Assembly: GCA_015232645.1 (NCBI GenBank)
Contig: JADFZF010000008.1
Span: 1-38,927 of the forward strand
From: Magnetococcales bacterium
Lineage (GTDB): Bacteria > Pseudomonadota > Magnetococcia > Magnetococcales > UBA8363
Direction of reading: 5' to 3'
DNA: 38,927 bases
The position numbers were made by a program, and so were the translations under genes. Below, piece after piece: positions 21,365 through 38,333 of this stretch (position 1 is the stretch's first letter; each line of letters opens with the position of its first letter). Below the pieces are notes generated by a model. That model did not search any database and was not told where the DNA came from. It worked only from the letters and a program-made list of their open reading frames with translations.

Positions 21365-21460
21365 ATGGGTCCGAAACCGGAGGGGCTGACTTCTTTCCCT
21401 GCTCAAACAGCAATATTCTTCACGGAGGAACCGAACAGTGACAATGAGAGCCAAACATGA
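21365..21460 (+). CDS. Possible 31-aa leader ORF coupled to the SulP-type gene
   Basis: ATG at 21365 has a strong GGGAGG site at 21351-21356 (8-nt spacing) and the ORF runs 31 codons to a TGA that overlaps the ATG of the transporter gene (ATGA at 21457). The peptide starts MGPKPEGLTSFPAQ and ends NSDNESQT; I recognise no family. The transporter gene itself lacks a good ribosome site, so coupled translation from this ORF is plausible. It could be chance. Confidence 0.4.
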   Translation: MGPKPEGLTSFPAQTAIFFTEEPNSDNESQT

Positions 21461-23679
21461 TTGATCAGGCAACCCAGGATAAATCGGATGGCAAGTGGAT
21501 ACAAACAGCATGGCTTCCAACGTTATTGACAGCTCTGGTTATTGGAATTGACAATGTCGGAACAAGCTTGGCCAGCGCCTCATTATTGTATTCTGGATCG
21601 TTGGCTTCCGGTTTGAATCTCGGTATCCACGTACTCATGCTCAGTTCCATCGTCATGGCGGTGGGACTACGCAGCACACAACCTAATGGATTTGGTGTGG
21701 TGCAGGAAATGGGTATAGCGATACTTTCCGTCACACTCGTCAACATGTCCAACCATTTGGAAGGCGCCGCAGATGGTACACGGGTCGCCACCTCCCTGGC
21801 CATCATTGGCAGCGCGTCCCTGGTGACCGGATTATTGATGGTCGTCGTTGGAAGATTGCAGTTGGGGAGCTTCGCTCGATATATTCCTTTTCCAGTGTTT
21901 GCAGGATTTCTGGCCGGATCGGGGTGGATGCTGATTGATGGGGCCGTTTCCTTACTTGCAGACACACACTCTGGCGGCCTTGAATTGTTGTCGCACATGT
22001 CGGATTGGATGGTACTCTCTCAGATCATGACCGCTATTGTATTTGCCGTTGGGTTAACCATCGTTCTACATCATTTCTCTCACCCTATGATTATGCCTAC
22101 GTATATCGTATTATCTGGAGCCATTTTTTATATTATCGTATATCTAGGTGGCTGGGAAATAGACAATCTACAAATGAACGGATGGCTGCCCAAACCCATT
22201 ACCCATACCAACGAAACCAGCCAATTCGACCTGAGGTCCATCCATTCACAAATTGTCTGGTCAGAAGTTGCACTGGCCTTGCCATCGCTGTTATCCATCG
22301 CCATGCTGAACCTGCTGGATACATTGTTCACCCTCAGTGGTTTGGAGCTGACGACCGGTCGCGAACTTGAGCCCAATACCGAATTGCAAAGAACTGGAAT
22401 CGCCAACCTACTGACCTCAACGTTCGGTGGCGCCTCCGGATTCATGGACTTTGGTTATACACAGCTTGCGGAAAAAATGGGAGCCACCAACCGCTGGACT
22501 GGTCCAGCCGTGGCTGGCGTCACTGCGTTTGGACTCTTGTTCGCCGAATCCCTGATCACCATCATGCCCGTGTTTTTATCCTCCGGCATTGTATTATTCA
22601 TGGGAATCGAAATTGTCCTCGAATGGTTGATCGCAACCCGTCGCTCCGTGCCGCGTTCCGAATGGGCCGTGATCCTGATGGTTTTTCTCGTGATTGCCGG
22701 AGCTGGATTTCTTTATGGCCTGGCCCTGGGGACAACCGTCGCCATCGTACTTTTCGTCGTCAACTATGCCCGACTGCCCGTGGTGCGACGAGTCGCCACC
22801 GCGGCGCAACAACGCAGCAATGTCGATCGTTCATTGGAGGCCACGCGTTACCTCGGCCAATATGGAGATACGGTGGTGCTGCTGTATATCCATGGCTACC
22901 TCTTCTTTGGCAGCGCTGTCGCTATCGTCGATTGGATCAAATCCCGAATTGCTTCCCAGGATAAATTACCATTGCGATACCTGATTCTGGATATGCGGCG
23001 GGTTCAGGGAGCTGACTCTTCGGCCATGGCTTGTTTTAGTAAAATACAAAACCTGGCAGAAATTAACGAGTTCAATGTTATATTCTGCAGTATGACAACG
23101 CAGCTTGAAACACTTTTTCTAGGTTCGGGATTTCACTTTGAACCCAATACGGTCTTTTCCATAGAAACCGACTCTGATCATGCCCTGGAACGTTGCGAAG
23201 AACTCCTGCTGATGGATGCAAAAAATCCCAGTCTGCTCAATGCCAACATTCAACACCATTTTGAAACAATCATTGGACCACAGAAACGTATTCCCGATAT
23301 GATCAAAATGTTGGATCGCTTGTCATTCCCCCATGAAGACGTTTTGATCCGACGTGGAGATCCGGCCGATTGCATCTATTTTCTGGAATCTGGTAATGTC
23401 AAAATCTCCCTGACGCTTCCGGATGGCCGTACCTTACGTTTACGGACCATGACCTCAGGGGCCATCGTGGGTGACGTCGGCGTTTGTTTAGGTCAATCCC
23501 GTACAGCCGATGTGATCGCCGAAGGGACCGTCGTGGTATACCGCTTGCAAACTACCACTCTTGAAACCATGGAAAAACAAGACTCCAACCTCGCCATCCT
23601 GTTTCACCGTTTACTCGAAAGAGCGTTGTCCGAAAAAATAGTGGCCATGAATGAAGCCATGAAGGCGCTGCAACACTGA
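21457..23679 (+). CDS. SulP/SLC26-type membrane transporter with STAS and cyclic-nucleotide-binding domains
   Basis: 740 aa. Residues about 17-440 contain some ten hydrophobic segments and SulP-type motifs (GFGVVQEMG, FPVFAGFLAGSGW, NLLDTLFTLSGLE, NLLTSTFGGASGFMDFG). A STAS domain follows (about 460-580) with D520-S521 in the loop where such domains may be phosphorylated. A cNMP-binding domain (about 612-730) has LIRRGDPADCIYFLESG; the phosphate-binding cassette reads GDVGVCLGQSRTADV, with Asp673 in place of the usual Glu but Arg682 retained. SulP proteins transport anions such as sulfate or bicarbonate; this cNMP-fused subgroup is poorly characterised. Cyclic-nucleotide gating is inferred. 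Base composition is lower in GC than the neighbouring cell-wall genes. Confidence 0.9.
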   Translation: MIDQATQDKSDGKWIQTAWLPTLLTALVIGIDNVGTSLASASLLYSGSLASGLNLGIHVLMLSSIVMAVGLRSTQPNGFGVVQEMGIAILSVTLVNMSNHLEGAADGTRVATSLAIIGSASLVTGLLMVVVGRLQLGSFARYIPFPVFAGFLAGSGWMLIDGAVSLLADTHSGGLELLSHMSDWMVLSQIMTAIVFAVGLTIVLHHFSHPMIMPTYIVLSGAIFYIIVYLGGWEIDNLQMNGWLPKPITHTNETSQFDLRSIHSQIVWSEVALALPSLLSIAMLNLLDTLFTLSGLELTTGRELEPNTELQRTGIANLLTSTFGGASGFMDFGYTQLAEKMGATNRWTGPAVAGVTAFGLLFAESLITIMPVFLSSGIVLFMGIEIVLEWLIATRRSVPRSEWAVILMVFLVIAGAGFLYGLALGTTVAIVLFVVNYARLPVVRRVATAAQQRSNVDRSLEATRYLGQYGDTVVLLYIHGYLFFGSAVAIVDWIKSRIASQDKLPLRYLILDMRRVQGADSSAMACFSKIQNLAEINEFNVIFCSMTTQLETLFLGSGFHFEPNTVFSIETDSDHALERCEELLLMDAKNPSLLNANIQHHFETIIGPQKRIPDMIKMLDRLSFPHEDVLIRRGDPADCIYFLESGNVKISLTLPDGRTLRLRTMTSGAIVGDVGVCLGQSRTADVIAEGTVVVYRLQTTTLETMEKQDSNLAILFHRLLERALSEKIVAMNEAMKALQH

Positions 23680-23730: not shown

Positions 23731-26700
23731 TCAAGCTTGATTGTTCGCCAGATTCACCCCCATCCCCATCGCCAGCCCCCGCAATAAATCCCGTGCCGAC
23801 TCAAAATCATACTGGGCCACCTTGTCCATGACCCGGATCAGATCCGTAGCCAGATCATCCGTCATCGGTAAACGCTGCATCCTGGCCAGGGTTTCCTCGG
23901 CACTGGCATCATAACTCTCCAATTGTTGAAACGCCTGAAGCATGAGTGCATTGCGCTCGTTAATGATTTTCGCATCTTCCACCTGCGCCACGCTGAAGAC
24001 ATTGGCAACAGGAGGGGAATGGGGAACGGAGGCGTCAATAGACTGGCATAACGACTCCAGAGCTACCGCCATCTGCTCCAATAACGCATTCAGGTCGTCG
24101 TTGTCGTGATGACGCCGGGTGCGCAGACGGGATTCCACATCGGCCGCCCTCCATGACAGGCTTTCAGCGCCAATGGTCGCCGCCACCCCCTTCAAAGTAT
24201 GCGCCAGCCGACAAGCGGTATCGACATCCAACGCGCGCAGGGCTTGCCGTATAGCAGCTACCGCCGACCTTTGATTGGAACAAAATCGCGACAATAGCTT
24301 AAGATAGCCATCCACCCTCCCTCCCATGCGAGCCACACCCGCCTTGACATTGAGTCCGGCGATCATGGGGAGGTCCGGGGTCAAGGGTTCCTCCACCACT
24401 TCGTCACCATGCGGAGCGACAGGGAGAGGCTGAGGAGCTGCAGCCTTGATCCAGCGCGCCAGAGTGGCAAACATCTCGCGTGGCACCACCGGTTTAGCGA
24501 TATGATCCTGCATCCCCGCCTCCAGACACAATTCCCGGTCCCCCGACATGGCATTGGCGGTCATGGCCAATATGGGCAATTCCGTCAAGCCCGGGATCCT
24601 GCGAATCTCACGGGTGGCCGTCAAACCATCCATTCCTGGCATCTGCACGTCCATCAAGACGCCGTCGAAACGTTCCTTGAGCAGCCGATCCACCGCCTCC
24701 AGACCATTTTCTACCGCCACAACCGTAATATTGGCCTGCTCCAACAACTCCATGGCCACCTGACGATTGATTTCATTATCCTCCGCAAGTAAAATCTTCG
24801 CTCCCGACAGTACCGTGAAAAATTCACGCTCGTCCCCAAGCAGATTGGCCTCCTGAGGATGAAGCCGCGCCGTATGCCCAAAGGCCTCCATGATGGCCTC
24901 CAGGAGCATGCTCTGGCTGACCGGTTTGACCAAAAAGCCATCGACATGGGCTTCTTGAGTGGCCCGACGGACCACCTCCTCCTCGCCATAAGCGGTGGCG
25001 ACGATCAGCAATGGTGGCGACCGCAGTGCCAACTGAAAACGGATCGTAGTCGCCGCTGTAATCCCATCCACTTCGGGCATCATATAATCGATCAAAACCA
25101 GGGAATAAGGGGTATCGTTCTGGTCCGCTTGTCGTACCGCCAGGATCGCCTCCTGGCCACCTTGCACCTGATCGACAATGAAGGAAAAGGAATTAAGATA
25201 GAAAGTCATCACATCGCAGGCATTGACGTTGTCATCCACGACCAAGGCGCGCATACCCGCGAAGTGACTTCCAGGAAGCGACGGTTTGACAGGGACTTCC
25301 CTGCCAACCCCGAGTCGGACATCAAATTGGAACCGTGACCCGACTCCCACCTGGCTTTCCACTTGGATGGATCCATCCATCAGGGCGATCAGGCGCTTGG
25401 AAATGGCCAACCCCAAACCGGTCCCTCCATAACGCCGGGTGATGGAGGAATCGGCCTGACTAAAGGCCTGAAACAATCGATCGATTTGTTCCCCGGTCAT
25501 ACCGATACCGGTGTCCTGAATGACGAATTGCAGCCGAACCCCTTGGTCGTCGCGCTCCAACAGATGCGTGGCGATGGAAACTTCCCCCTTCTGGGTAAAC
25601 TTGACCGAATTGCTCGCCAGATTGAGCAGAATCTGGCCCAGCCTCAAGGGATCGCCGACCAGAACCCTGGGAATGTCAACGGCGGGTCGCATGATAAATT
25701 CGAGATGTTTTTCGTGCGCCTTGATGGACACCATAGACGACAGATTGCCGAGAACCTCATCCAGGGTGAACTCGATGGATTCCATGTCCAACCGCCCGGC
25801 ATCAATTTTAGAAAAATCAAGGATGTCGTTGATGATTCCCAACAACGAAGTGGCCGAGGTGTGCACCTTGCGTATGTAATCCTTCTGTTTGGCGGTCAAA
25901 CGGGTTTGCAAACACAGATGACTGAGGCCAATGATGGCATTCATGGGGGTACGGATCTCATGACTCATATTGGCCAGGAATTCCGATTTGGCCTGGCTGG
26001 CCAGTTCCGCCTTGGACAAAGCCTGGGCACGCTCTTCCTCCAGCCGTTTCTTTTCGGTAATATCGTCCTTGATGGCCAAATAGTGGGTGATAGTTCCGTC
26101 GCTGTCTCGGACCGGCGAGATCACCGCATACTCCCAAAATAACGACCCGTCCTTTCTCCGATTGTGCAGCTCCCCGCGCCAGGTTTGACCGTTGACGATG
26201 CTTTGCCACATCGTTTCGTACACCGACGCCGGGGTATTCCCCGAGCGGATCACCCCCGGTTTATTGTTGATCAACTCCTCGCGGGCAAACCCGGTGGATT
26301 CGATGCATTTGGGATTGACGTAAATAATATAACCCTCCCGATTGGTGATCATGATATCGGAGGAACTTTGATCCACCGCCTGTGACAGCAAACGAATGCT
26401 TTCCTGGGCTGCCTGCCGATCGGTGATGCATTGCACGGTGCCGATCACCTCGGTTACGGTACCCTGTTCATCGCGCTGAAACTCGGCCAGTTCGCGAATC
26501 CAACGAACCGAATCGTTCACCAGGATGCGATGTTCGATATCATAAACGGCCTGACCCTCCATGGCGTTCTGCCAGGATCGGGCCACCTTGGCCCGGTCAT
26601 CGGGGTGGATGTAACCGACGAAGGTGGGATAGTCCATGGTGGTCCCCGGTGGCAGACCCAGCAGGTCGTAGACCCCATCGGACCAGACGATCCGGCCGGA

Positions 26701-27780
26701 GGCGACCTCCATGCGCCAACTTCCCAACAAGGCCACCTTTTGCGCCCGCATGAGGGTAGCCTCACTGCGTTGCAATTCCGCGGTACGCTCTCGAACCCGG
26801 AGTTCCAGCTCCTTCTGAATGGAGTTGAGAGCCTGGGTACGGGCATCGAAAGCCTGGGCCAGGATTTCCAATTCATCATTGCTCCCCAGGGGAGCACACA
26901 ACGCCCCCCCTTCACCCCCGACGCGACGGACCCGGTCACTGAGTTCCAGAATGGGACGGGAAAAACTTTTCCCCAAGCCGATGGCGGCCACGACCGCCCC
27001 TATGACCAGGATCATTCCAAACAAGACGAACGTGGAAACAGCCCTGTGAATAGGGGCCAAAAAATCCGCGGATGGGGTTCCCACCAATACCCCCGCATGA
27101 ATGCCGCGCAGTAAAGGTGCCGAATCGTCCGCCATGACCACTTCAGTGAGATATTCCACATCGGGATGAAAATTGAAGACGAAACGGTTCCGATCTTCCA
27201 AAACAATGGCCTGGAATAATTGATCACTGTGGACCATCAGCCTTCTAGCCATGGCTTCCAGGTCGTATTGGATGACCACTGCCCCCTGGGTGGTGTAATA
27301 ATAGCGGACGGGCGCCACCATGAGCAGATGATGACTGGGTTGAGAAAGAAACACCCCCGACTGACCCATCGACAAAGCCAGTCGCAATTCCGATGAGGCA
27401 TTGAAATCGGGCGTCCGCTCCCCTTTGATGAACAGCGGTTCTCCGTCAAAATCGACCAGGGCGAAGGACAGCACATCCCGACCTTTGGAAAAATCTTCCG
27501 CAACTTTGGGCAGATAATTTTCTCTGCCCTGGGGATCGATCAATCCGTTGATGATAAAATGGCTTTCCGCCAACCTCGTGGTATGTTCCATCAACATACC
27601 GATCTGCATCTCCAGGCGCAGCATCTTGTGCCGGGCTTGGTTGCTGAGGTTGGATCGATGTTCACGATCCAAATGATTGAACAACAACAACGAAATGAAC
27701 AATGTGGACAATCCGACCGTAACCGTCACCAGAACGGAGATGTAGGTAATCAGTTTGGTGCGTATGCTTTTGGGCATCAT
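23731..27780 (-). CDS. Hybrid histidine kinase: periplasmic sensor, HAMP, two PAS, HisKA, HATPase, two receivers, HPt
   Basis: 1349 aa. TM1 is about 9-34, a periplasmic domain 35-250, TM2 about 251-270, then a HAMP-like region, a coiled coil (about 310-345), PAS at about 350-455 and 465-575, and the dimerisation domain with phospho-acceptor H607 in SHEIRTP. The ATPase domain has N-, G1- (DTGIGM) and G2-boxes (GGTGLGLA). Receiver 1 has D898 (LIDYMMP), receiver 2 has D1044 (LMDVQMP), and an HPt domain has H1194 (AHTLKG). It is thus a complete internal phosphorelay. It starts 22 bp after the stop of the double binding-domain protein and has no good ribosome site of its own, so they are probably one operon and one signalling pathway. 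No separate response regulator lies beside it; the output is unknown. Confidence 0.95.
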   Translation of the reverse strand: MMPKSIRTKLITYISVLVTVTVGLSTLFISLLLFNHLDREHRSNLSNQARHKMLRLEMQIGMLMEHTTRLAESHFIINGLIDPQGRENYLPKVAEDFSKGRDVLSFALVDFDGEPLFIKGERTPDFNASSELRLALSMGQSGVFLSQPSHHLLMVAPVRYYYTTQGAVVIQYDLEAMARRLMVHSDQLFQAIVLEDRNRFVFNFHPDVEYLTEVVMADDSAPLLRGIHAGVLVGTPSADFLAPIHRAVSTFVLFGMILVIGAVVAAIGLGKSFSRPILELSDRVRRVGGEGGALCAPLGSNDELEILAQAFDARTQALNSIQKELELRVRERTAELQRSEATLMRAQKVALLGSWRMEVASGRIVWSDGVYDLLGLPPGTTMDYPTFVGYIHPDDRAKVARSWQNAMEGQAVYDIEHRILVNDSVRWIRELAEFQRDEQGTVTEVIGTVQCITDRQAAQESIRLLSQAVDQSSSDIMITNREGYIIYVNPKCIESTGFAREELINNKPGVIRSGNTPASVYETMWQSIVNGQTWRGELHNRRKDGSLFWEYAVISPVRDSDGTITHYLAIKDDITEKKRLEEERAQALSKAELASQAKSEFLANMSHEIRTPMNAIIGLSHLCLQTRLTAKQKDYIRKVHTSATSLLGIINDILDFSKIDAGRLDMESIEFTLDEVLGNLSSMVSIKAHEKHLEFIMRPAVDIPRVLVGDPLRLGQILLNLASNSVKFTQKGEVSIATHLLERDDQGVRLQFVIQDTGIGMTGEQIDRLFQAFSQADSSITRRYGGTGLGLAISKRLIALMDGSIQVESQVGVGSRFQFDVRLGVGREVPVKPSLPGSHFAGMRALVVDDNVNACDVMTFYLNSFSFIVDQVQGGQEAILAVRQADQNDTPYSLVLIDYMMPEVDGITAATTIRFQLALRSPPLLIVATAYGEEEVVRRATQEAHVDGFLVKPVSQSMLLEAIMEAFGHTARLHPQEANLLGDEREFFTVLSGAKILLAEDNEINRQVAMELLEQANITVVAVENGLEAVDRLLKERFDGVLMDVQMPGMDGLTATREIRRIPGLTELPILAMTANAMSGDRELCLEAGMQDHIAKPVVPREMFATLARWIKAAAPQPLPVAPHGDEVVEEPLTPDLPMIAGLNVKAGVARMGGRVDGYLKLLSRFCSNQRSAVAAIRQALRALDVDTACRLAHTLKGVAATIGAESLSWRAADVESRLRTRRHHDNDDLNALLEQMAVALESLCQSIDASVPHSPPVANVFSVAQVEDAKIINERNALMLQAFQQLESYDASAEETLARMQRLPMTDDLATDLIRVMDKVAQYDFESARDLLRGLAMGMGVNLANNQA

Positions 27781-27802: not shown

Positions 27803-29974
27803 TTATGGGTTGACCGCCACTAGCTTGCCGTCACGATTGAAACGGGCGAGAAAATAGCTGCCCGGATCCAGCGCATCATGGCGTTCCGGAGAAAAAGGTG
27901 GGGAATAATGTTTGATCAACCCATCATATCCTTCCAGACTTTCCAAAGCATTGCGAACCTGGATGCGGTCGGTGGTACCCGCCTTGGCGATGGCTTGGGC
28001 CAGCAGGTGAATCAGATCATAGGCCTGGGCCACCCCGACATCGGATGGCATGTCGAAGCTGTCATTGGGAAAAAAGGATCTTTTATACCCCTCCAGAACC
28101 CGGTTGGACCGAGGTGTCGGAAGGTGGGCAAAAGAAAATGTTTGCAATACTTGAAGATCGATCGTTTCTGGAAGGGGGCCGATCATGGAAATGAAATGGC
28201 CGCTGGCCAGTCCCCAATGGGAGATGATCGGAAGGGTCGGTTGACCCCTAGCCGCCTGATTGATCATCTCCTTGACCAATCCTGCCCCCTCGACGACATT
28301 GGTGACCAGCACGATCACCTGGGCCCCCGACTGCCGGATACGGTCCAGTATGGTCGCCCAGTCGTTCTCACCCCGATCGACCCAGGCCACGTGCGTGGGA
28401 GCTTGGTTTCTTTCCTTGAGGCTGCGGATCATGGATTCTTCGTTGCCTCGGCCCCACAACGAATTTTCCAGCACCAAAGCCACTTGACCGTACTTTTGCG
28501 TGGCGGCCCGGATCAGGAAGGGAGCGGCGGTCTCGTCATTGGCGGAGACTCGAAAGGTATAATTGGGCGGGGGCCCCTGATGGACCAGCTTGGCCGCCGC
28601 GGCCCATGGAACCAGGTCGACGATATGGGTTGTCTGCGCCGCCCTGGCCTGGAGCTGGGCGATGGAACTGAACGTACCACTCATGATCGCCACGACATCG
28701 GGCATGGCGGCCAATTCTTGAAAGTTTTTCAAACCGATGGACGGTATCGCCCTGTTGTCGCGACAAATGAGGCGTAATGGTCGTCCCAAAACCCCGCCAC
28801 TGGCGTTGATCTCATCCATGGCCAGCAAAGCGCCTTGCTTGATCGCCAGACTGCCACGCACACTGATCGACGACAGATCGCTGTCCATTCCGACAACGAT
28901 GACTGGCGCCGGTTTGGCCGCCTGTTGTTGCCGAAACAACGATTCTTCCGCCTTGGATATCACATCGGGACCAATAATCGCTTCAAACTGGCGGGGCAGA
29001 TGCGCCGCATTTTCGATGAAACGCAGACGCTCCGATTCGGTCAGGGTGTGAATTTCGACTCCAGAGTGACGCAGCGTTTCGAGCCACTGTTGTTCCCGAC
29101 GTTGGGTCTCTTGCCGTTCGAAGCTGACCAATTCCCGTGCCGTGGTCAACAGCAGCGTGCGTGCCTCGGCGGGCATATCCCGCATGACCAGATGGCTGGC
29201 GGCCAGAACGTAACCCAAATAACCATGGTTGCTGATGGTCAGATGCGACTGCACCTGATAAAATTTCATCGTGGCAATAGCCACCAGGGGGTTTTCCTGG
29301 CCGTCGACCACCTTGTCGGCCAGCGCCTGACGGGTGGAATGGAAATCGATCAGAATCGGGGTGGACCCCATGGTCTCGAAGTGGTGCATGATCAGCCGGC
29401 TTTTCATGGTTCTGATTTTCAGGCCATGAAAATCTTCAGGACGGCGAATGGGGCGATCGGCGGTAAACTGTTTGAAACCATTCTCCCAGAAGGCCAGCCC
29501 CTCCAATCCCACGGGACGCAATTTTTCCAATAGCAACCCGCCCAATTCGCCATCCAGGAGCTGGTAGAGAGCATCTCGAGTGGGAAAATAAAATGGTAAA
29601 TCGACCAACTGCATCGCCGGAACCGCGGGACTGAGTTTGGCGGTCGGGATCAGGAGCAGTGCCAACCGCCCCTGACGGGTCATCTCCAACATTTGATCAT
29701 CATTGCCCAGTTCTTGGGCCGGGTGAAGCTTCACGCGGAGGTTTCCACCGCTCTTCTTGTTGACTTCCGCGGCAAAACGTCGGGCCGCCTCATGCAATGC
29801 ACTGTCTTCCGGCGAATTATGTCCCAGTTCGAGGGTCGTGATGGCGGCGGCGGCAGACCGGCTCGGCGTCAACGTCACCGCCGGGGCCATGGAATAATGA
29901 ACAAGCTTGTGAATCAAAGCGACCGCAATCAACAAAAATACCGCCCCAATGGCGACCAGTTTGAACAGCTTCAT
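27803..29974 (-). CDS. Membrane-anchored fusion of TRAP-type (DctP) and LivK-type solute-binding domains
   Basis: 723 aa from the ATG at 29974. Residues 1-29 form an N-terminal membrane anchor or signal (FKLVAIGAVFLLIAVALI). Residues about 46-345 are a DctP-type TRAP binding protein with the carboxylate-binding Arg188 in GLKIRT and the DGQENPL motif at 224-230. After a short linker, residues about 357-720 form a Peripla_BP_6 (branched-chain amino acid/amide ABC) domain: SLAIKQGALLAMDEINASGGVLGRPL, GTFSS, ALVLENSLWGRGNEES, YDLIHLLAQAI. No TRAP or ABC permease genes are near; the next gene is a hybrid kinase, so a sensory role is likely, like TorT with TorS. Upstream the frame remains open to 30289, but no family sequence is seen there. 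Confidence 0.92.
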   Translation of the reverse strand: MKLFKLVAIGAVFLLIAVALIHKLVHYSMAPAVTLTPSRSAAAAITTLELGHNSPEDSALHEAARRFAAEVNKKSGGNLRVKLHPAQELGNDDQMLEMTRQGRLALLLIPTAKLSPAVPAMQLVDLPFYFPTRDALYQLLDGELGGLLLEKLRPVGLEGLAFWENGFKQFTADRPIRRPEDFHGLKIRTMKSRLIMHHFETMGSTPILIDFHSTRQALADKVVDGQENPLVAIATMKFYQVQSHLTISNHGYLGYVLAASHLVMRDMPAEARTLLLTTARELVSFERQETQRREQQWLETLRHSGVEIHTLTESERLRFIENAAHLPRQFEAIIGPDVISKAEESLFRQQQAAKPAPVIVVGMDSDLSSISVRGSLAIKQGALLAMDEINASGGVLGRPLRLICRDNRAIPSIGLKNFQELAAMPDVVAIMSGTFSSIAQLQARAAQTTHIVDLVPWAAAAKLVHQGPPPNYTFRVSANDETAAPFLIRAATQKYGQVALVLENSLWGRGNEESMIRSLKERNQAPTHVAWVDRGENDWATILDRIRQSGAQVIVLVTNVVEGAGLVKEMINQAARGQPTLPIISHWGLASGHFISMIGPLPETIDLQVLQTFSFAHLPTPRSNRVLEGYKRSFFPNDSFDMPSDVGVAQAYDLIHLLAQAIAKAGTTDRIQVRNALESLEGYDGLIKHYSPPFSPERHDALDPGSYFLARFNRDGKLVAVNP

Positions 29975-29980
29975 CTTCGT

Positions 29981-29987
29981 CTTCTCC
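29981..29987 (-). promoter_or_regulatory. Ribosome site fixing the start of the double binding-domain gene
   Basis: GGAGAAG on the minus strand lies 6 bases before the ATG at 29974 and supports this start against the long upstream open frame. Confidence 0.7.
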
Positions 29988-30641
29988 AGGACAGGCCTGT
30001 CATTGGGGGGGATGGATCGGGGACAGGCGGGACAATCCCTGCCCCACCCGCGATGCTGTCGAATCCGCCAATATTTTCCATACCACCCTTCGCTCTCGCC
30101 CTCCACATCTTCATCACGTATCTCAATGGCCGACTCCATCCACCGGGTTGGAGAGTGCCAATCGTTCATCGATGTCCCACACGTTTCTTGGAATGGGATA
30201 CCACATGCTTGGCGATGCAACAACTGTCGATTCCCGCTGGGCCCGGTGAGGGAACACTTGTCGCCGACGGCTGGCGGGCTATCGGGCACCGCGGGTGGAT
30301 GAAGCTTGCGTCCATTTATATCTAAAGTAATTCATCGCCCCTGCCGGGAAAGAACCCAGAGAACTGCCGACGCCTGGGACTGACCCCGGGAAGGGCCTGG
30401 AAAATGGAATTGACGCATGTTATACAGAAGATGGTTCACACTCGTATCCTCCAGACCGATTTCACCAAAGGGACCGGCCATCTTGGCGGTGTTTGAGGCA
30501 ATGCCTTTACCATTTGGAAATCCTGTCACTCCTGGATTCAAGGGGGGGAATGGCGGCCATCCATCCCCTGCCAGGCCCGTGGAAACCGCCCGTTTTCACC
30601 CCTTGGAGGACGAAATTCTCTTCCTGCCCTGGTCATAACCG
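29988..30641. other. Long divergent intergenic stretch
   Basis: About 650 bp between the divergent signalling operon and the LPS operon. Short open frames exist on both strands, but none has a credible start, composition or family match. A TATAAA-like box on the minus strand near 30313-30320 may drive the signalling operon, which would give a leader of over 300 nt. I see no RNA gene. Confidence 0.4.
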
Positions 30642-30680: not shown

Positions 30681-32162
30681 ATGAACGTCCAGCACACCCG
30701 CCTGCTCAAAGCCCTCACCCATGATTTTCGCCAGATTACCGTCTTCGTGATCGGCGATCTGATGTTGGATCGCTACCTGTGGGGTGAGGTTTCACGCATC
30801 TCCCCAGAGGCTCCGGTGCCGGTGGTGCGGTTGAACCGCGTCAGTGAAAACCCCGGCGCAGCCGCCAATGTGGCCATGAATCTGGTACGCCTGGGACTGA
30901 ATTGCCGTCTGGCCGGGTTTGTCGGCCATGACCCCGATGGCAACAAGCTCAGGGAACTCATCGCTGCCGCCGGCATCGACGTCTCCGCCATCTGGTCACT
31001 GTCGGACCATCCCACGGTCACCAAAACCCGTATCATCGGCGGCCATCAACAAATGCTGCGCCTGGATCTCGAGGATGTCCGCCCTCCGGAAGAATCGGAA
31101 CGCCTCCGCTTTGTGGCACGCCTGCTGGAAATGCTCGATTCCCTCCCTCCCCCCGCGGCCGTGATCCTGTCCGATTATGGCAAGGGGACCTTGGGCAAAG
31201 AAACCTGCCGCGCCATCATTCAAGCGGCTCGTTCCCGCGGCTTGCCGGTGGTCGTCGATCCCAAGGGGGTCGATTATACCCGCTATCACGGTGCCACCAC
31301 CCTGACCCCCAACCGGCGCGAATTGGCCGAAGCCATTCCATGGCCCTATGCCGATCTGGCCGGCCTGCTGGCCCAGGGGGAAAAAATGATTCCTTCCCTG
31401 GGGCTGGATTTCCTCACCGTCACTTTGAGTGAATTGGGTATCGCCCTCCTGGAAAAAGATTCCACCCCCAGACGCATTCCCGCCATGGCCAAAGAGGTGT
31501 TCGATGTCTCGGGGGCGGGCGATACGGTCGTGGCAACCCTGACCGCCGGCATCGCCGCCGGTCTGTCACCCATCGAAGCCTTGCATCTGGCCAATCTGGC
31601 GGCCGGAGTGGTGGTCGGCAAGGTGGGAACCACCCCCATCACCTATCCCGAAATTCTCGCCGCCCTGTCCACCGATGCCGCCATTGGCGAATCGGACAAA
31701 ATCTGCGATCTGGAACGGGCCTCGGCCCGCGTCGCCGCCTGGCGCGAATTGGGTCAAAAAATCGTCTTTACCAATGGCTGCTTCGACCTGCTCCACGCCG
31801 GACATGTGACCTATCTCGAAAAGGCCCGCCGGCTCGGACAAAGGCTGGTCGTCGGCCTGAATACCGATCGATCGGTTCGTCAACTCAAGGGACCCTCCCG
31901 CCCCGTCATCAACGAAAATGACCGCGCTCGCGTCCTGGCTGCCATGGCCTCCATCGACATGGTGGTTCCGTTCGACGAAGAAACCCCACTCAACCTGATT
32001 CAAAACCTCCAACCCCATATCCTCGCCAAAGGGGCCGACTATTCCCTGGAACAAGTAGTCGGCTACCGCGAAGTTCAACACTGGGGGGGCGAGTGTGTTC
32101 TGATCCCCCTGGTGGAGGGGAAAAGTTCTAGCCGTATCGTCGAACATATCAAACACCCTTAG
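30681..32162 (+). CDS. hldE: Bifunctional heptose-7-phosphate kinase / heptose-1-phosphate adenylyltransferase
   Basis: 493 aa. It makes ADP-heptose for the LPS inner core: first phosphorylation at O-1, later adenylylation. The PfkB kinase domain (about 15-335) shows GDLMLDRY, NPGAAANVAMNL, LSDYGKG and the catalytic GAGD at 278-281 with base D281. The nucleotidyltransferase domain (about 355-490) has FTNGCFDLLHAGH, with the HxGH motif at 372-375, then LNTDRSVRQLKG. Both halves are complete, so the protein is the fused form. It leads an operon; hldD begins 15 bp downstream. ADP-heptose is also a known immune-stimulating metabolite in pathogens, but nothing here indicates such a role. Confidence 0.97.
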   Translation: MNVQHTRLLKALTHDFRQITVFVIGDLMLDRYLWGEVSRISPEAPVPVVRLNRVSENPGAAANVAMNLVRLGLNCRLAGFVGHDPDGNKLRELIAAAGIDVSAIWSLSDHPTVTKTRIIGGHQQMLRLDLEDVRPPEESERLRFVARLLEMLDSLPPPAAVILSDYGKGTLGKETCRAIIQAARSRGLPVVVDPKGVDYTRYHGATTLTPNRRELAEAIPWPYADLAGLLAQGEKMIPSLGLDFLTVTLSELGIALLEKDSTPRRIPAMAKEVFDVSGAGDTVVATLTAGIAAGLSPIEALHLANLAAGVVVGKVGTTPITYPEILAALSTDAAIGESDKICDLERASARVAAWRELGQKIVFTNGCFDLLHAGHVTYLEKARRLGQRLVVGLNTDRSVRQLKGPSRPVINENDRARVLAAMASIDMVVPFDEETPLNLIQNLQPHILAKGADYSLEQVVGYREVQHWGGECVLIPLVEGKSSSRIVEHIKHP

Positions 32163-32177
32163 AAGAGGCACCAACCC

Positions 32178-33140
32178 ATGATCATTGTCACCGGCGGCGC
32201 CGGTTTCATCGGCTCCAATATCGTCGCCTTTCTCAACCAGCACGGTCGCAGTGACATTCTTATTGTGGACAACCTGCAGAAAAGTGACAAATTCCTCAAC
32301 CTGAGGGATCTCAAATTCCTTGATTTCCTCGACAAAAGTGAATTTCGTACCGCCCTCGGTCGCGGTGATTTCCACGCCCTGCCCATTCAGGCCATCCTGC
32401 ATCAGGGGGCCTGTTCCGATACCATGGAATACGATGGCCGCTACATGATGGATAACAATTATACCTACTCCAAAGAGTTGTTTCACTTTGCCGTAGGCCG
32501 TGGGATTCCGTTGGTCTATGCCTCTTCCGCCGCCACCTATGGGGCTTCCATACGCTTCTCCGAACATCCCGACAATGAAAAGCCCTTGAATATCTACGGA
32601 TATTCCAAGCTTTTGTTCGACCGCTATGTCTCGCAGCACTGTTCCGGAGTGGCGAGTGTGGTGGTGGGACTAAGATATTTCAACGTCTACGGCCCGCGTG
32701 AGGGACACAAGGGGCGGATGGCCTCCATGGTCCACCAGCTTCATGAACAGATCAGGAATACCGGAGTGGCGCGCCTGTTTCGGGGCTCCGGAGGATTCGC
32801 CGATGGCGAACAACGACGGGATTTCATTCATGTCGCCGATGTGGCCCGGATCAATATCGCCCTAATGGAACGCAAACCCGCCATCCATGGAGTTTTCAAC
32901 GTCGGAACCGGCATCAGCCGCAGCTTCAATGACATCGTCACCAATCTTTACCGTGCCATGGATCGTCCCCAGCAATCTACCACCTATGTGGCCATGCCCG
33001 AGGGACTCCAAGCCAAATACCAAAATTTCACCGAAGCGGATATCTCCGCCCTGACCTCCCTGCCGGGCCTGAATTATCAACCCACGTCGCTTGAGCAAGG
33101 GATCTCCGCCTTTGTCCTGGCTAAAGAAGCGGGACTTTGA
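32178..33140 (+). CDS. hldD: ADP-L-glycero-D-manno-heptose 6-epimerase
   Basis: 320 aa, extended short-chain dehydrogenase. It converts ADP-D,D-heptose to ADP-L,D-heptose, the donor for WaaC and WaaF. The NADP Rossmann motif TGGAGFIGSN is at residues 5-14, the ASSAATYG segment near 115, and the catalytic Tyr140-x3-Lys144 in YGYSK. The stretch LRYFNVYGPREGHKGRMASM is characteristic of HldD. The ribosome site AGAGG lies upstream. The stop TGA overlaps the TTG start of waaF. Confidence 0.96.
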   Translation: MIIVTGGAGFIGSNIVAFLNQHGRSDILIVDNLQKSDKFLNLRDLKFLDFLDKSEFRTALGRGDFHALPIQAILHQGACSDTMEYDGRYMMDNNYTYSKELFHFAVGRGIPLVYASSAATYGASIRFSEHPDNEKPLNIYGYSKLLFDRYVSQHCSGVASVVVGLRYFNVYGPREGHKGRMASMVHQLHEQIRNTGVARLFRGSGGFADGEQRRDFIHVADVARINIALMERKPAIHGVFNVGTGISRSFNDIVTNLYRAMDRPQQSTTYVAMPEGLQAKYQNFTEADISALTSLPGLNYQPTSLEQGISAFVLAKEAGL

Positions 33141-34213
33141 CTCCATCATCGACCACATCGATACCTGCCATTCTGGTTGTCGGTCCCTCATGGGTCGGCG
33201 ACATGGTGATGGCGCAACCCTTGTTTCAACTCCTGAAACGTCAGATAGGTCCCTGTCTCATAGATGTCCTGGCCCCCGCCTGGAGCCTGCCCCTGGTGGA
33301 GCGGATGCCGGAGGTGCGTGCCGGAATCGACCTGCCGTTGCGCCACGGTGATCTGGGACTGGTGCGACGTTACCGTCTGGGGAAGGAGCTTCAAGGGCAT
33401 TACCGCCAGGCGATTGTGTTACCCAACTCGTTCAAATCGGCCCTGGTTCCGTTTTTTGCCCGGATCCCCCGGCGCACCGGTTTCATCGGCGAGGGGCGGC
33501 TGGGACTTTTGAACGACATGCGACGCCTGGACCGCAAGCTGTACCCGCAAACGGTGCAACGTTTTGCCGCCCTGAGCCTGGACCCGGGCCAAACCTTGCC
33601 GACGCCATTGCCCATACCGCAATTGACCCTCCTCCCACAACGCGTCTGCGCCACGTTTCGTGGCCTGGGGATTCCCCTCGACGGACATCCCAATCTGGCT
33701 CTGTGCCCCGGGGCGGAATTTGGACCGGCCAAACGTTGGCCGCTGCATCATTTTCAAACCTTGGCCCGGGAATGTACCCGGCAGGGATGGCGGGTGGTGG
33801 TGCTCGGGTCGGCCAAGGAACGGACTTTGGGAGAGGCCATCTGTCCGGCGACAGCTGGCAACTGCCTGAACCTGGCGGGAACGACCTCCCTGGAGGAGTC
33901 GGTGGACCTGCTGTCGTTTGTCCAGGCGGTGGTCACCAACGATTCGGGCCTCATGCATGTGGCCGCTGCCTTGAATCGTCCAGTGATCGCCCTTTTTGGC
34001 TCATCCGATCCCAACCATACCCCCCCCATGGCAACCCAGGCCCATATTTTGACCCGTCATTTTCCCTGTGCGCCATGCTTCAAACGCCAGTGCCCTCAGG
34101 GTGATCCTCCCCCATGCCTGGAGCAAATCACCCCGGATCAGGTCCTGGAAACCCTTCATGCATTAACCGCTCAGGGTTCCCGTCCCACCCAGATCACCAT
34201 GACAGGCTCATGA
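33137..34213 (+). CDS. waaF: ADP-heptose--LPS heptosyltransferase II
   Basis: 358 aa, glycosyltransferase family 9. It adds the second heptose to the LPS inner core at the cytoplasmic face. ILVVGPSWVGDMVMAQ near the N-terminus, LPNSFKSALVPFFA, GAEFGPAKRWP and TNDSGLMHVAAAL are WaaF signatures. A Cys-rich tail (CAPCFKRQCPQGDPPPC) is common in the family. The start is a TTG at 33137 overlapping the hldD stop (TTGA); no ATG precedes the conserved GPSWVGDM block, so the rare start is likely real. Its stop overlaps the waaC start. Confidence 0.92.
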   Translation: MTPSSTTSIPAILVVGPSWVGDMVMAQPLFQLLKRQIGPCLIDVLAPAWSLPLVERMPEVRAGIDLPLRHGDLGLVRRYRLGKELQGHYRQAIVLPNSFKSALVPFFARIPRRTGFIGEGRLGLLNDMRRLDRKLYPQTVQRFAALSLDPGQTLPTPLPIPQLTLLPQRVCATFRGLGIPLDGHPNLALCPGAEFGPAKRWPLHHFQTLARECTRQGWRVVVLGSAKERTLGEAICPATAGNCLNLAGTTSLEESVDLLSFVQAVVTNDSGLMHVAAALNRPVIALFGSSDPNHTPPMATQAHILTRHFPCAPCFKRQCPQGDPPPCLEQITPDQVLETLHALTAQGSRPTQITMTGS

Positions 34214-35217
34214 AGGTGCTCCTGGTGAAAACCTCGTCTCTGGGAGATCTCCTCCACACCCTTCCGGCGCTGACCGATGCCATGAATCATGACGGAAGTA
34301 TCGAATTTCACTGGTTGGCGGAAGAAAATCTAGCCGAAATTCCCACCTGGCACCGGGGGGTACGGCGGGTGCTGCCACTTCCCTGGCGGCGCTGGCGACG
34401 TCATCCACTTCAAGCCTGTTTGCAGGGAGAATGGCGACGTTTTCTCCGTGAATTACGCCAGGAAGACTACGATGCCATCATTGATGCCCAGGGATTGCTG
34501 AAAAGCGCCATCCCGGCCTTTCTGGCCCGCGGTGAAAGCTGGGGACTGGATCGACACAGTGCCCGGGAACCGATGGCCTCCTTATGGTATCGACATCGAC
34601 TCCGGGTGGCCAGGGAAATGCACGCCGTCGACCGGGTGCGTGCCCTGCTGGCCCAGGCCTTGCAATATCCCCTCCCCCGGGAACGACCCGATTATGGTTT
34701 ACAACAGAGGTTTGCCTCGAACCCCAATGGCGATTATCTTGTCTTCGTCCATGGCACCACCTGGGCCAGCAAGCACTGGCCAGAACATCATTGGCATCAG
34801 TTGCTGGCACTCTTGGACTCCCAAATTCCCGTCCTGTTACCCTGGGGCAACGCCCTGGAGAAAGAGACCGCGGAGCGGCTGGCACGATCCAAAAGCGACG
34901 CCGTCCGGGTGACGGAAAAATCGAGCCTGACACGCCTGGCACGGATATTGGCCCAGGCCCGAGGCGTGGTGACGGTGGATACGGGACCGGCGCATCTGGC
35001 GGCGGCGTTGAACCGACCGGCGTTCTGTCTGTACGGTCCCACCGATCCGGCCCAGGTGGGGACAGTGTGCCAAAACCATCATCATGTTCGGGGACCCTGT
35101 CCCCACTCCCCCTGCCGACGACGGCTCTGTCCCCTGGTCCCACCCGGTTCTCCATCCCCCTGCATGGAAGCCATCGATCCGCGGCATGTCCACCATTGGC
35201 TGGAGGCCTTGCCGTGA
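34210..35217 (+). CDS. waaC: ADP-heptose--LPS heptosyltransferase I
   Basis: 335 aa, glycosyltransferase family 9. It transfers the first heptose to Kdo-lipid A. The N-terminus MKVLLVKTSSLGDLLHTLPALTDA is the WaaC hallmark; then IDAQGLLKSA, LVFVHGTTWASKHWP and VTVDTGPAHLAAALNRP follow. The tail is Cys- and Pro-rich. The ATG at 34210 forms an ATGA overlap with the waaF stop; the frame is open 32 codons upstream but lies inside waaF and lacks similarity. The next gene overlaps its stop by four bases (GTGA). Confidence 0.94.
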   Translation: MKVLLVKTSSLGDLLHTLPALTDAMNHDGSIEFHWLAEENLAEIPTWHRGVRRVLPLPWRRWRRHPLQACLQGEWRRFLRELRQEDYDAIIDAQGLLKSAIPAFLARGESWGLDRHSAREPMASLWYRHRLRVAREMHAVDRVRALLAQALQYPLPRERPDYGLQQRFASNPNGDYLVFVHGTTWASKHWPEHHWHQLLALLDSQIPVLLPWGNALEKETAERLARSKSDAVRVTEKSSLTRLARILAQARGVVTVDTGPAHLAAALNRPAFCLYGPTDPAQVGTVCQNHHHVRGPCPHSPCRRRLCPLVPPGSPSPCMEAIDPRHVHHWLEALP

Positions 35218-35987
35218 CTCGGAAGCCGTTGAGCGTTGTCATCATCACCAAAAATGCGGGGAAGGTTTTGCATCCGTGCCTGCAAAGTGCCACATTTGCC
35301 GATGAAGTGGTGTTGGTCGATTGTGGCAGCGATGACGACACCCTGGAGATCGCCAGGCAATACCAAGCCCGGATCATCCATCAACCCTGGTTGGGATTCG
35401 GGCCGCAAAAACGTTTTGCCGTGGAACAGGCCCGTCATGATTGGGTATTGTGCCTGGACTCCGACGAACGAATCAGCACCGAGTTGCAAACCCGGATCGT
35501 GGAAACGTTAACGGCCCCCAAATATAAAAGTTACCTCCTGGCCCGACGCAACCGTTTCCTGGGGCGATGGTTGTCCCATGGCGAAGGCTACCCCGATTGG
35601 GTTCTACGCCTCTTCCACCGAGATCATGCCACCTGGTCCTTGGATCCGGTTCACGAAAAGGTGGAAACCAATGAACCCGTGGGTCGGCTGCGCGGCGATT
35701 TATACCACGAGTCGGAGCAAACCCTGGCCGATTATGTCACCAAACAAAATACCTACACCTCCCTTCAGGCAGAGCTAATCCATCGTTCAGGCCGTCGGTT
35801 TTCTCCCTGGCGCATGTTTTTGAATCCTTTATCCAGATTTATTAAATTCTATTTTTTCAGGCTTGGGCTGCTCGATGGCCTGCCTGGTCTCATACACATT
35901 GCCCTGGGTTCGTTCGCAAGTTTCTTGAAATATGCTAAAGTGCTGTCGTTTCAATATGACTGTGACAAACGGAAAGATTCAGTTTGA
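35214..35987 (+). CDS. Family 2 glycosyltransferase, WaaE/KdtX-like LPS core enzyme
   Basis: 257 aa starting with GTG at 35214, which overlaps the waaC stop (GTGA). The GT-A fold shows LSVVIITKNAG at the start, VVLVDCGSDDDTLEIA and LCLDSDERIS, where the acidic DSD-type motif binds metal and sugar nucleotide. The second half has RRNRFLGRWLSHGEGYPDWVLRLF and VHEKVE, characteristic of the WaaE/KdtX group that adds glucose to heptose I. A hydrophobic or amphipathic segment near 205-245 may associate with the membrane. Context at the end of a heptose operon supports LPS core glycosylation; the exact sugar is not determined. Confidence 0.9.
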   Translation: MTRKPLSVVIITKNAGKVLHPCLQSATFADEVVLVDCGSDDDTLEIARQYQARIIHQPWLGFGPQKRFAVEQARHDWVLCLDSDERISTELQTRIVETLTAPKYKSYLLARRNRFLGRWLSHGEGYPDWVLRLFHRDHATWSLDPVHEKVETNEPVGRLRGDLYHESEQTLADYVTKQNTYTSLQAELIHRSGRRFSPWRMFLNPLSRFIKFYFFRLGLLDGLPGLIHIALGSFASFLKYAKVLSFQYDCDKRKDSV

Positions 35988-36093
35988 CCAACCAACAGGA
36001 TACGTCTGGACCAGGACGTGTTCACCGCCAGCCCGTCAAGTCGTCAGCAGCAAATTGTATTGTCGTTGCCCATCGACCCAACTATTGAAAGTC

Positions 36094-36098
36094 AGGAG
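36094..36098 (+). promoter_or_regulatory. Ribosome site deciding the GTG start of the chemoreceptor
   Basis: AGGAG sits 6 bases before the GTG at 36105. The frame is open to 36018, but no site precedes that codon and the TM helix begins soon after the GTG. Confidence 0.65.
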
Positions 36099-36104
36099 CT
36101 TCGC

Positions 36105-38333
36105 GTGAGCATTAAAGATTTATCAATAAGATGGAAACTTATTTTCGGATTTGGTGTCGTTGGAGTATTATTCCTAGGAGTCATATGGCGTTATCATTTC
36201 GGCTTGGTTGATATTGAGCATGGATATCATTCTCTCCTCAGAGTTGACCTGGCGCAAAAAGAAATTGCCGACAAAATAAATATTGCCATCCTGCAGGCAA
36301 GACGCGAAGAAAAAAATTTCATCATGCGTCATGATCCCGTCTATGAACAAAAAGTCGGAAAAGCGATTGAACAGGCGATTCTACTGACCAAAGAATATGA
36401 TCGCTTAGGTCAGGAAAGCCATAACGAAGAAGACAGACGTATGGCTGCAACGATCCGGGAGAATCTCGACACCTATCACAAGGCGTTTACCCTCCTGGCA
36501 ACAAAATGGAAAGAAAAAGGTTTGACCCCGGAGCAAGGCCAGCTTGGGGTCTTACGTTCCGTTGCCGACCAGATGGAAGAAATCTGGAAAAATATGGATG
36601 TGGAACGGCTTCATATTCTGCTCCTGGAAGCGCGGCGCGCAGAAAAGGATTTTCGCCTGCGTCTTGACGCCAACTATATTAACAAACACCATGAAATTTT
36701 GGAAAAATTCTCCAGGGAAACTGATGATTGCATGCTGAGTACCGAGCTGAAAGCAAACCTTAAGGAGCTGACTAGGTCGTACCAGGAGGCATTCAGAAAG
36801 ATTGAAAAAGAAATTTCCAAAACAGGAAAAGATGTCCCCGCAGACCAGGCAAAAGATTTAAATGATACTGCCCATCGTCTCGAACGTTTTATCGCACTCC
36901 ACTATGCCGATAACGTATGGGTCCATTTCCTGATGGCCCGGCGTGCCGAGAAGGATTATCTACAACGATTGGATGAAAACTATATCAAAGAAGCCCAGAA
37001 ACAAATCGATCGACTAAAGGAAAGCATCCAGACATCAGAAATGGATATAGAATTAAAAACAAAAATTGATGGTTTACTTTCCGAATATCGTTCCGCCCTG
37101 TTATCCATCGCAGACATCAACAAGCAAATAGCTGATTTGGAACAGAAGGGCATGATTGAATCCGCACGCAACGTACTGAATCTTGTTGAAAAGTCAGAAA
37201 AGATATCGATGGAAGATGGAGACAGAAAAATCAGTGCCATGCAAGAACTCGCCGAGGCGATCAAGACCCAATCGCTGTTCATCTCACTCGCGGGATTCCT
37301 GCTGGGTGGAATCGTTGGCTGGCTTCTGAGCGCCTATATTGTGAATACCGCTGAACGTTTGGCTGTTTTTGTCAACAGGTTGGGAAACATGGACCTGTCG
37401 GGCTTATGTTCGATCCAATCCGGAGATGAGTTCGGACGTATATCCGAGGCCATAAACAAATCCATGTTCAGCCTGAAAAAAACGTTCATAACCATGCGCG
37501 AAGCATCACAACAGGTGATGCTCCATGGCCAGGAGATCGCCAGCACCGCCCAAATCATGGCGGATGGGGCATCCACCCAGGCTTCTTCGATCCAAGAGAC
37601 CTCAGCGGCGATGGAACAGATGTCGGGTAATATCTCCCAGAACACCGAAAATGCCCGTTTGACGGAAAGCACCTCCAGGATCGCTGCCAACGATGCGGTT
37701 GAGGGGGGGGAGGCAGTGAAAAAGGCGGTGACCGCCATGAAGGAAATTGCCGGCAAGATTTCCATCATCGAAGAAATCGCTCGCCAGACCAATCTGCTGG
37801 CTTTGAATGCCGCCATCGAGGCAGCACGGGCTGGTGAACATGGAAAGGGGTTTGCGGTGGTGGCGGCGGAGGTCCGTAAACTGGCAGAACGGAGCCAGCT
37901 TGCCGCGGGTGAAATCGGACAGCTCTCCACCTCTTCGGTTCAGGTGGCCGAGAAGGCGGGAACCATTATCGACAAACTGGTCCCTGACATCCAAAAGACG
38001 GCTTCGTTAGTACAAAAGATTGCCGCATCTTCTCAGGAACAGAGCACCGGAGCGGGACAGATCAACCAGGCAATTCAGACCCTGGATCAGGTCATACAAA
38101 AAAATGCCGGCATGGCGGAGGAACTGTCGGCAACGGCGCACGAGTTGAGCAATGCTTCCGAAGCCATGGCGGAAGCGGTCTCTACTTTCCGCACCGGGGA
38201 TGAGGGCCGACATGCGGCCTCGGCACAAAAGAAACGACGCAGGACCGCCCACCCTCCGGCCGTCCCGGAACGTGTCGCAGCCAAGGCACTCACTTCCTCC
38301 AGGGATGAACCCGGCGATTGGGATCAATTTTAG
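36105..38333 (+). CDS. Methyl-accepting chemotaxis protein with three-module helical sensor
   Basis: 742 aa from GTG 36105. TM1 is at about 12-28 and TM2 at about 390-412, leaving a roughly 360-residue periplasmic region that is all helical. In it the motif ARRxEKxFxxRxDxxY appears three times, at about 65-80, 176-191 and 278-293, resembling the helical bimodular (HBM) sensor family but with three units. A HAMP-like segment follows, then the cytoplasmic signalling hairpin [20 protein letters not shown] near 558-577. After a basic, proline-containing linker, the protein ends in DWDQF, which fits the xWxxF tether for CheR/CheB. The ligand is unknown; HBM receptors often bind organic acids. The first half is A/T-richer than upstream genes. 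Confidence 0.95.

Follow-up and report, generated by a model that had tools for sequence, protein, structure and literature searches.

A Magnetococcales chemoreceptor with a putative three-unit sensor of the HBM superfamily

The window (the whole stretch of 38,927 nucleotides analysed here, contig JADFZF010000008.1, from the draft genome, 74% complete, of a magnetotactic-type Magnetococcales bacterium) encodes a chemoreceptor in whose periplasmic part one charged motif occurs three times. Two-module helical sensors are well known, and the question raised by this locus is whether a third unit really exists, how it would be accommodated in the fold, and where it came from.

Three homologous units between two transmembrane helices

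The receptor has 742 aa and its gene (36105..38333, + strand, as are all features of the receptor given below) begins with a GTG at 36105. Since an AGGAG, likely the ribosome-binding site (36094..36098), lies six bases upstream of this GTG, we favoured it over the longer ORF start at 36018. Hydropathy analysis placed TM1 at about residues 9-30 (36129..36194; peak about 8-30) and TM2 at about residues 389-412 (37269..37340), and these two peaks bracket all the repeats, within a periplasmic sensor of ~355 residues (TM-to-TM about 380). The MCPsignal domain (residues 524-663; 37674..38093; PF00015, E 2.3e-31) scored 109.4 bits against a Pfam cut-off of 34.6 which, together with the two TM helices flanking the sensor, identifies the protein as a methyl-accepting chemotaxis protein (MCP). 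It ends with DWDQF (38316..38330), which fits the CheR/CheB tether pentapeptide pattern; a similar C-terminal pattern was found in 26 of the 111 MCP ORFs of the fetched loci.

Pfam, NCBIfam and PDB sequence searches with the sensor found no named domain. The three copies of an ARRxEK motif pointed out in the earlier note were confirmed: ARREEKNF at residues 65-72 (36297..36320), ARRAEKDF at 176-183 (36630..36653) and ARRAEKDY at 278-285 (36936..36959), spaced by 111 and 102 residues. They are the conserved cores of larger repeats, each made up of a helix with LxxARRxEKDFxxRxDxxY, a helix with YxxAF and a helix with RxxAxxxE. A hidden Markov model (HMM) of this unit recognised unit 1 at residues 50-158 (36252..36578; 78.9 bits), unit 2, the extra middle one, at residues 160-260 (36582..36884; 88.8 bits) and unit 3 at residues 264-356 (36894..37172; 76.2 bits). 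When residues 31-385 were matched to themselves, the best ungapped stretch of 45 residues scored 79 with BLOSUM62, compared to a mean of 25 (SD 6, maximum 50) for 1000 composition shuffles. When the window protein was aligned with 22 relatives that share 26-43% identity with it, the invariant residues included R66, R67, E69 and K70 of copy 1, R177, R178, E180, K181 and D182 of copy 2, and R279, E282, K283 and D284 of copy 3, so that the repetition of the motif is not due to chance.

We then sorted the relatives by size, running the unit HMM on the ORFs of 181 loci before TM detection; the counts cover non-redundant proteins in which both TM helices were found, and leave weak two-unit matches aside. 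TM-to-TM distances fell into separate classes, with 72 three-unit proteins (366-388 residues), 60 two-unit proteins (254-296 residues) and two one-unit proteins (L010 and L012, 163 residues). Six further proteins have three-unit spacing with a middle unit that the HMM did not recognise, and no four-unit sensor was seen among the matches listed. The strict motif was present in all three units of 60 of the 72 three-unit proteins, a count biased upward because a scan with a motif-based pattern supplied some of the 72, although most of the others came from a search without the motif. The middle unit by itself keeps the strict motif in 65/72. In the 60 proteins with three strict motifs, the first spacing is 111 residues in 50, and the second ranges from 88 to 103.

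Could the repeats be no more than generic coiled-coil similarity inside one ordinary helical domain? Such resemblance is common among long helical proteins and the sensor carries no Pfam-named domain. We nevertheless consider this explanation extremely improbable given that the self-match beats all 1000 shuffles, the invariance across the 23 aligned sensors is specific to particular columns, the sensor lengths are quantised, and relatives lack exactly one whole unit. On the same four grounds we ruled it out as the alternative that the earlier note had set against its own proposal. Together these data establish that the third unit is real, with three homologous units of ~100 residues lying between TM1 and TM2.

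Relation to the HBM domain and predicted fold

The check suggested in the earlier note, a search with the HBM profile PF16591, gave no match to the window protein at E <= 1, and at E <= 0.1 it was absent from the matches listed in the Pfam search of 23 three-unit sensors. Two-unit relatives matched it weakly in 6 of 42 cases, and 12 of the 23 three-unit sensors gave weak matches to CHASE3. PF16591 was also matched by three other MCPs of the window's genome, one of them above the cut-off, and these carry a worn version of the motif in both units (e.g. LRAERNF and RLGEKEV). In a profile-profile comparison, the two-unit relatives matched these three MCPs with an E of 6.4e-7 and with the motif aligned in both units, while the controls reached 0.016 or worse (0.016 for the MCP signalling region, 0.08 or worse for column-shuffled profiles, reversed profiles being included as well); where the MCP region was compared with A3 and A4, the result was not counted as a control, since the two stretches overlap around TM2. 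The link was weaker for the three-unit family itself, with an E of 6.1e-5 against the three verified PF16591 sequences over one unit only. Against 11 HBM-like sequences, only three of which were checked against Pfam, we obtained 4.5e-12 for the two-unit and 5.3e-9 for the three-unit family, the latter skipping most of the middle unit. Thus, the kinship with HBM that the earlier note had assumed holds for the family, which on these profile comparisons is a variant of the HBM superfamily and not a member of PF16591. The window sensor shares with the HBM domain of McpS and McpK this motif-aligned kinship, a near-whole McpS in its predicted fold and an MCP output, but the HBM domain holds two modules in about 250 residues, whereas the sensor places a third unit between the two and is not matched by Pfam.

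AlphaFold2, run on 30 aligned sensors, predicted an all-helical structure (pLDDT 93, pTM 0.77), and a two-unit relative was modelled with a pLDDT of 94.5 and a pTM of 0.83. The three-unit model aligned with 229 of the 235 residues of McpS (Z 17.3, 2.8 A), and since this alignment is spread across model residues 45-367, about 94 residues are extra; the two-unit model aligned over 211/235 at 2.2 A. As predicted, the sensor is therefore a near-complete McpS-like fold with an inserted unit.

The statement in the earlier note that known HBM receptors are bimodular overlooks a solved sensor, McpZ (8f7n), which is reportedly tri-modular and was the top Foldseek match of our model (E 5.5e-4). This structure, solved in 2023, is the ligand-sensing domain of a Sinorhizobium meliloti receptor; it is said to consist of three concatenated four-helix bundles and reportedly arose within Rhizobiaceae. 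Both McpZ and the window sensor are long, all-helical chemoreceptor sensors. Given that McpZ is already a longer helical sensor, a tri-unit one is not unheard of. McpZ was absent among the PDB-chain sequence matches to our sensor at E <= 10, but McpS was likewise unfound, which makes this search a weak test of common descent with McpZ. The title of the McpZ paper, as given in the reference list of PMC7617929, contains the words "reveals a novel fold". The TorS sensor (3o1h, 3i9w and 3i9y) matched the three-unit model with a Z of 13.8-13.9; it belongs to a histidine kinase, reads the binding protein TorT and has two stacked four-helix bundles according to PMC8534201, whereas the window protein is an MCP with three units. 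CHASE3, 4HB_MCP and TarH have one bundle only and are similar in size to the one-unit members.

How the third unit is placed was then approached with the models. An extended stacked bundle, as put forward in the earlier note, would be three four-helix bundles end to end; the sensor would be taller and might have a third ligand pocket. McpZ, of similar length (364 residues), would speak for such a stack as the top structural match with a Z of 14.3. However, only 260 of these 364 residues aligned, at 4.0 A, against the near-complete alignment with McpS, even if models over 400 residues can score weakly with the structure-comparison tool used. Moreover, the first periplasmic helix is barely longer in the three-unit model (~73 residues) than in the two-unit relative (~67). 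We also enumerated topologies from helix lengths, not coordinates, with 1.5 A per residue, the gaps between helices A/B and B/C treated as turns and both TM ends at the membrane: no topology closing geometrically exceeded 138 A. Two topologies closed for the two-unit model, one of them being HBM-like with two storeys. The three-unit model left six, of which a single one would remain on the assumption that every unit follows the HBM-like pattern: about 110 A high, with two storeys of six helices and the three motifs near the middle. Coevolution analysis (78 three-unit and 64 two-unit sequences, too shallow) did not distinguish the topologies and did not recover the expected one in the two-unit control. 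Taken together, a stack of three bundles appears unlikely and the proposal is not supported by the models, while a third unit that widens the sensor instead of adding a storey has, in our view, about an even chance of being correct. The last helix (B3-C3) is continuous in the three-unit model and broken at that place in the two-unit model, so that converting a three-unit into a two-unit sensor would need a change of turn.

Distribution and origin of the middle unit

By scanning contigs and keeping the best 80 of 460 confirmed places, we found the closest matches in named records within Magnetococcales, the best at 43% identity. In the class Magnetococcia, 44 of 48 genomes matched the three-unit profile at E <= 1e-12, and among the matches listed at least 36 of the 48 hold a near full-length, three-unit match. 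Two-unit proteins of the same genomes gave a split match (about 1-160 and 260-410) that misses exactly the middle. At least 17 named loci, all fetched with the motif pattern and with copies under other ids merged, encode three-unit sensors (Pseudomonadota 10, Thermodesulfobacteriota 4, Planctomycetota 2 and one labelled Myxococcota), a breadth outside Magnetococcales that is a lower bound because only those best 80 places were kept. Two-unit relatives also occur in archaea (L077 and L079), and a plasmid search gave one weak Roseobacter match. The window's genome encodes a second three-unit sensor (C375), which is part of a hybrid histidine kinase. Chemoreceptor sensors are usually classed by named domains, and this one escapes Pfam yet joins a large family spanning several phyla. 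What is new, as far as literature searches on tri-modular chemoreceptors reached, is that it occurs order-wide in Magnetococcales and is also present in other phyla, and that the extra unit is gained and lost as a whole.

Comparing units between size classes, we observed that unit 1 of three-unit sensors was nearest to unit 1 of two-unit sensors (70/70), unit 3 to unit 2 (70/70), and the middle unit to the C-terminal unit 2 as well (69/70). The simplest explanation is thus that the extra unit is a duplicate of the C-terminal one, so that the middle unit would go back to unit 2 of a two-unit ancestor. In a tree of 135 proteins from which the middle unit was excluded, unit number changed at least 14 times, 5 of these changes being forced by starred branches. 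A more careful tree of 33 proteins had 6 changes, 4 of them forced by well-supported branches, a count that is not a rate because the 33 were hand-picked from the 135 around apparent unit changes. Alignments of sisters display a single, in-phase absence of the middle unit; in the trio with L053 and L168 only these two were counted, because the L038 row held a neighbouring HBM-like receptor. These sequence comparisons indicate that whole middle units have been gained or lost repeatedly within Magnetococcales.

The third unit could be a near-neutral spacer that comes and goes without functional effect, as might be expected from the at least four well-supported changes among the 33 selected proteins, from middle units having the lowest average score against their own profile, and from the six sensors in which the middle went unrecognised. 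We find this doubtful in view of the strict motif that most middle units retain. Natural pairs that lie one unit apart (L029 and L078/L082; L039/L140 and L069; L053 and L168) offer a direct route to test the effect of the extra module on ligand range and signalling, and make the receptor a useful case of growth and shrinkage of such sensors.

Proposed signalling mechanism and genomic context

Our overall explanation, which we consider probable, is that the protein is a membrane-spanning chemotaxis receptor with an all-helical periplasmic sensor, which belongs to the HBM superfamily and has one extra repeat unit. In each unit, a long helix would break at the R-x-D-x-x-Y segment of the motif and be followed by two shorter helices. 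At the motif the long helix would cross from one bundle to the other, which would bring all three charged motifs near one mid-plane, and the third unit would widen the sensor and add no third storey. The RRxEKD network may then act as a hinge between the bundles: when a ligand shifts the helices, the movement would be relayed to TM2, the degenerate HAMP region and the MCP tip. According to PMC5126104, the ligands of the HBM receptors studied to date are mainly C4-C6 organic acids, which bind at the dimer interface, and a phosphate-binding protein is sensed by CtpL; PMC9600550 describes dimerisation as required for binding in four-helix-bundle and HBM sensors. By analogy, our best guess is that the receptor would respond either to a small organic acid bound at the dimer interface or to a solute-binding protein.

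Ligand-binding arginines lie on the first helix in Tar and McpS. The conserved arginines of each motif might accordingly contact ligands and form up to three equivalent anion sites, and copy 1 may sit no more than about one and a half helical turns from the malate region of McpS, going by the alignment starts (model 45, McpS 48). We regard this as rather unlikely since the motif is nearly identical in all units, in MCPs, in a hybrid kinase (L006) and in the archaeal two-unit sensors, as would be expected of a structural element more than of a site for one particular ligand. Its presence in every unit, in MCP and kinase receptors alike, speaks for a structural hinge, though not conclusively. 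We tentatively propose that HBM-type sensors are built from a reusable unit of ~100 residues, with size set by insertion or deletion of whole units; the charged motifs of all units would converge on one mid-plane and serve as a common hinge, and an added unit would widen the sensor and provide a further input surface without altering the output geometry.

Directly 5' of the receptor, LPS-core-type genes (30681-35987) encode a PfkB/cytidylyltransferase fusion, an epimerase, two heptosyltransferase-family proteins and a GT2 protein. On the minus strand, an 828-aa protein combines a TRAP-type DctP domain with a Peripla_BP_6 domain (27803-30289), and 22 bases after its gene lies that of a 1349-aa PAS/histidine kinase/receiver/Hpt protein (23731-27780); the two possibly constitute a double binding-protein input to one kinase. 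A Sulfate-permease-family transporter with STAS and C-terminal cyclic-nucleotide-binding domains is encoded at 21457-23679.

Other combinations were found among the relatives. In L061 and L144, a three-unit receptor carries a CZB zinc-binding domain at its C-terminus, and in L161 a single 1433-aa stretch combines a two-unit sensor with a NIT domain and a hybrid histidine kinase. Downstream of the three-unit receptor, where the window's contig ends too soon for a comparison, four Magnetococcales loci (L047, L053, L062 and L064) have a second, HBM-like MCP with weak unit matches, which suggests a receptor pair.
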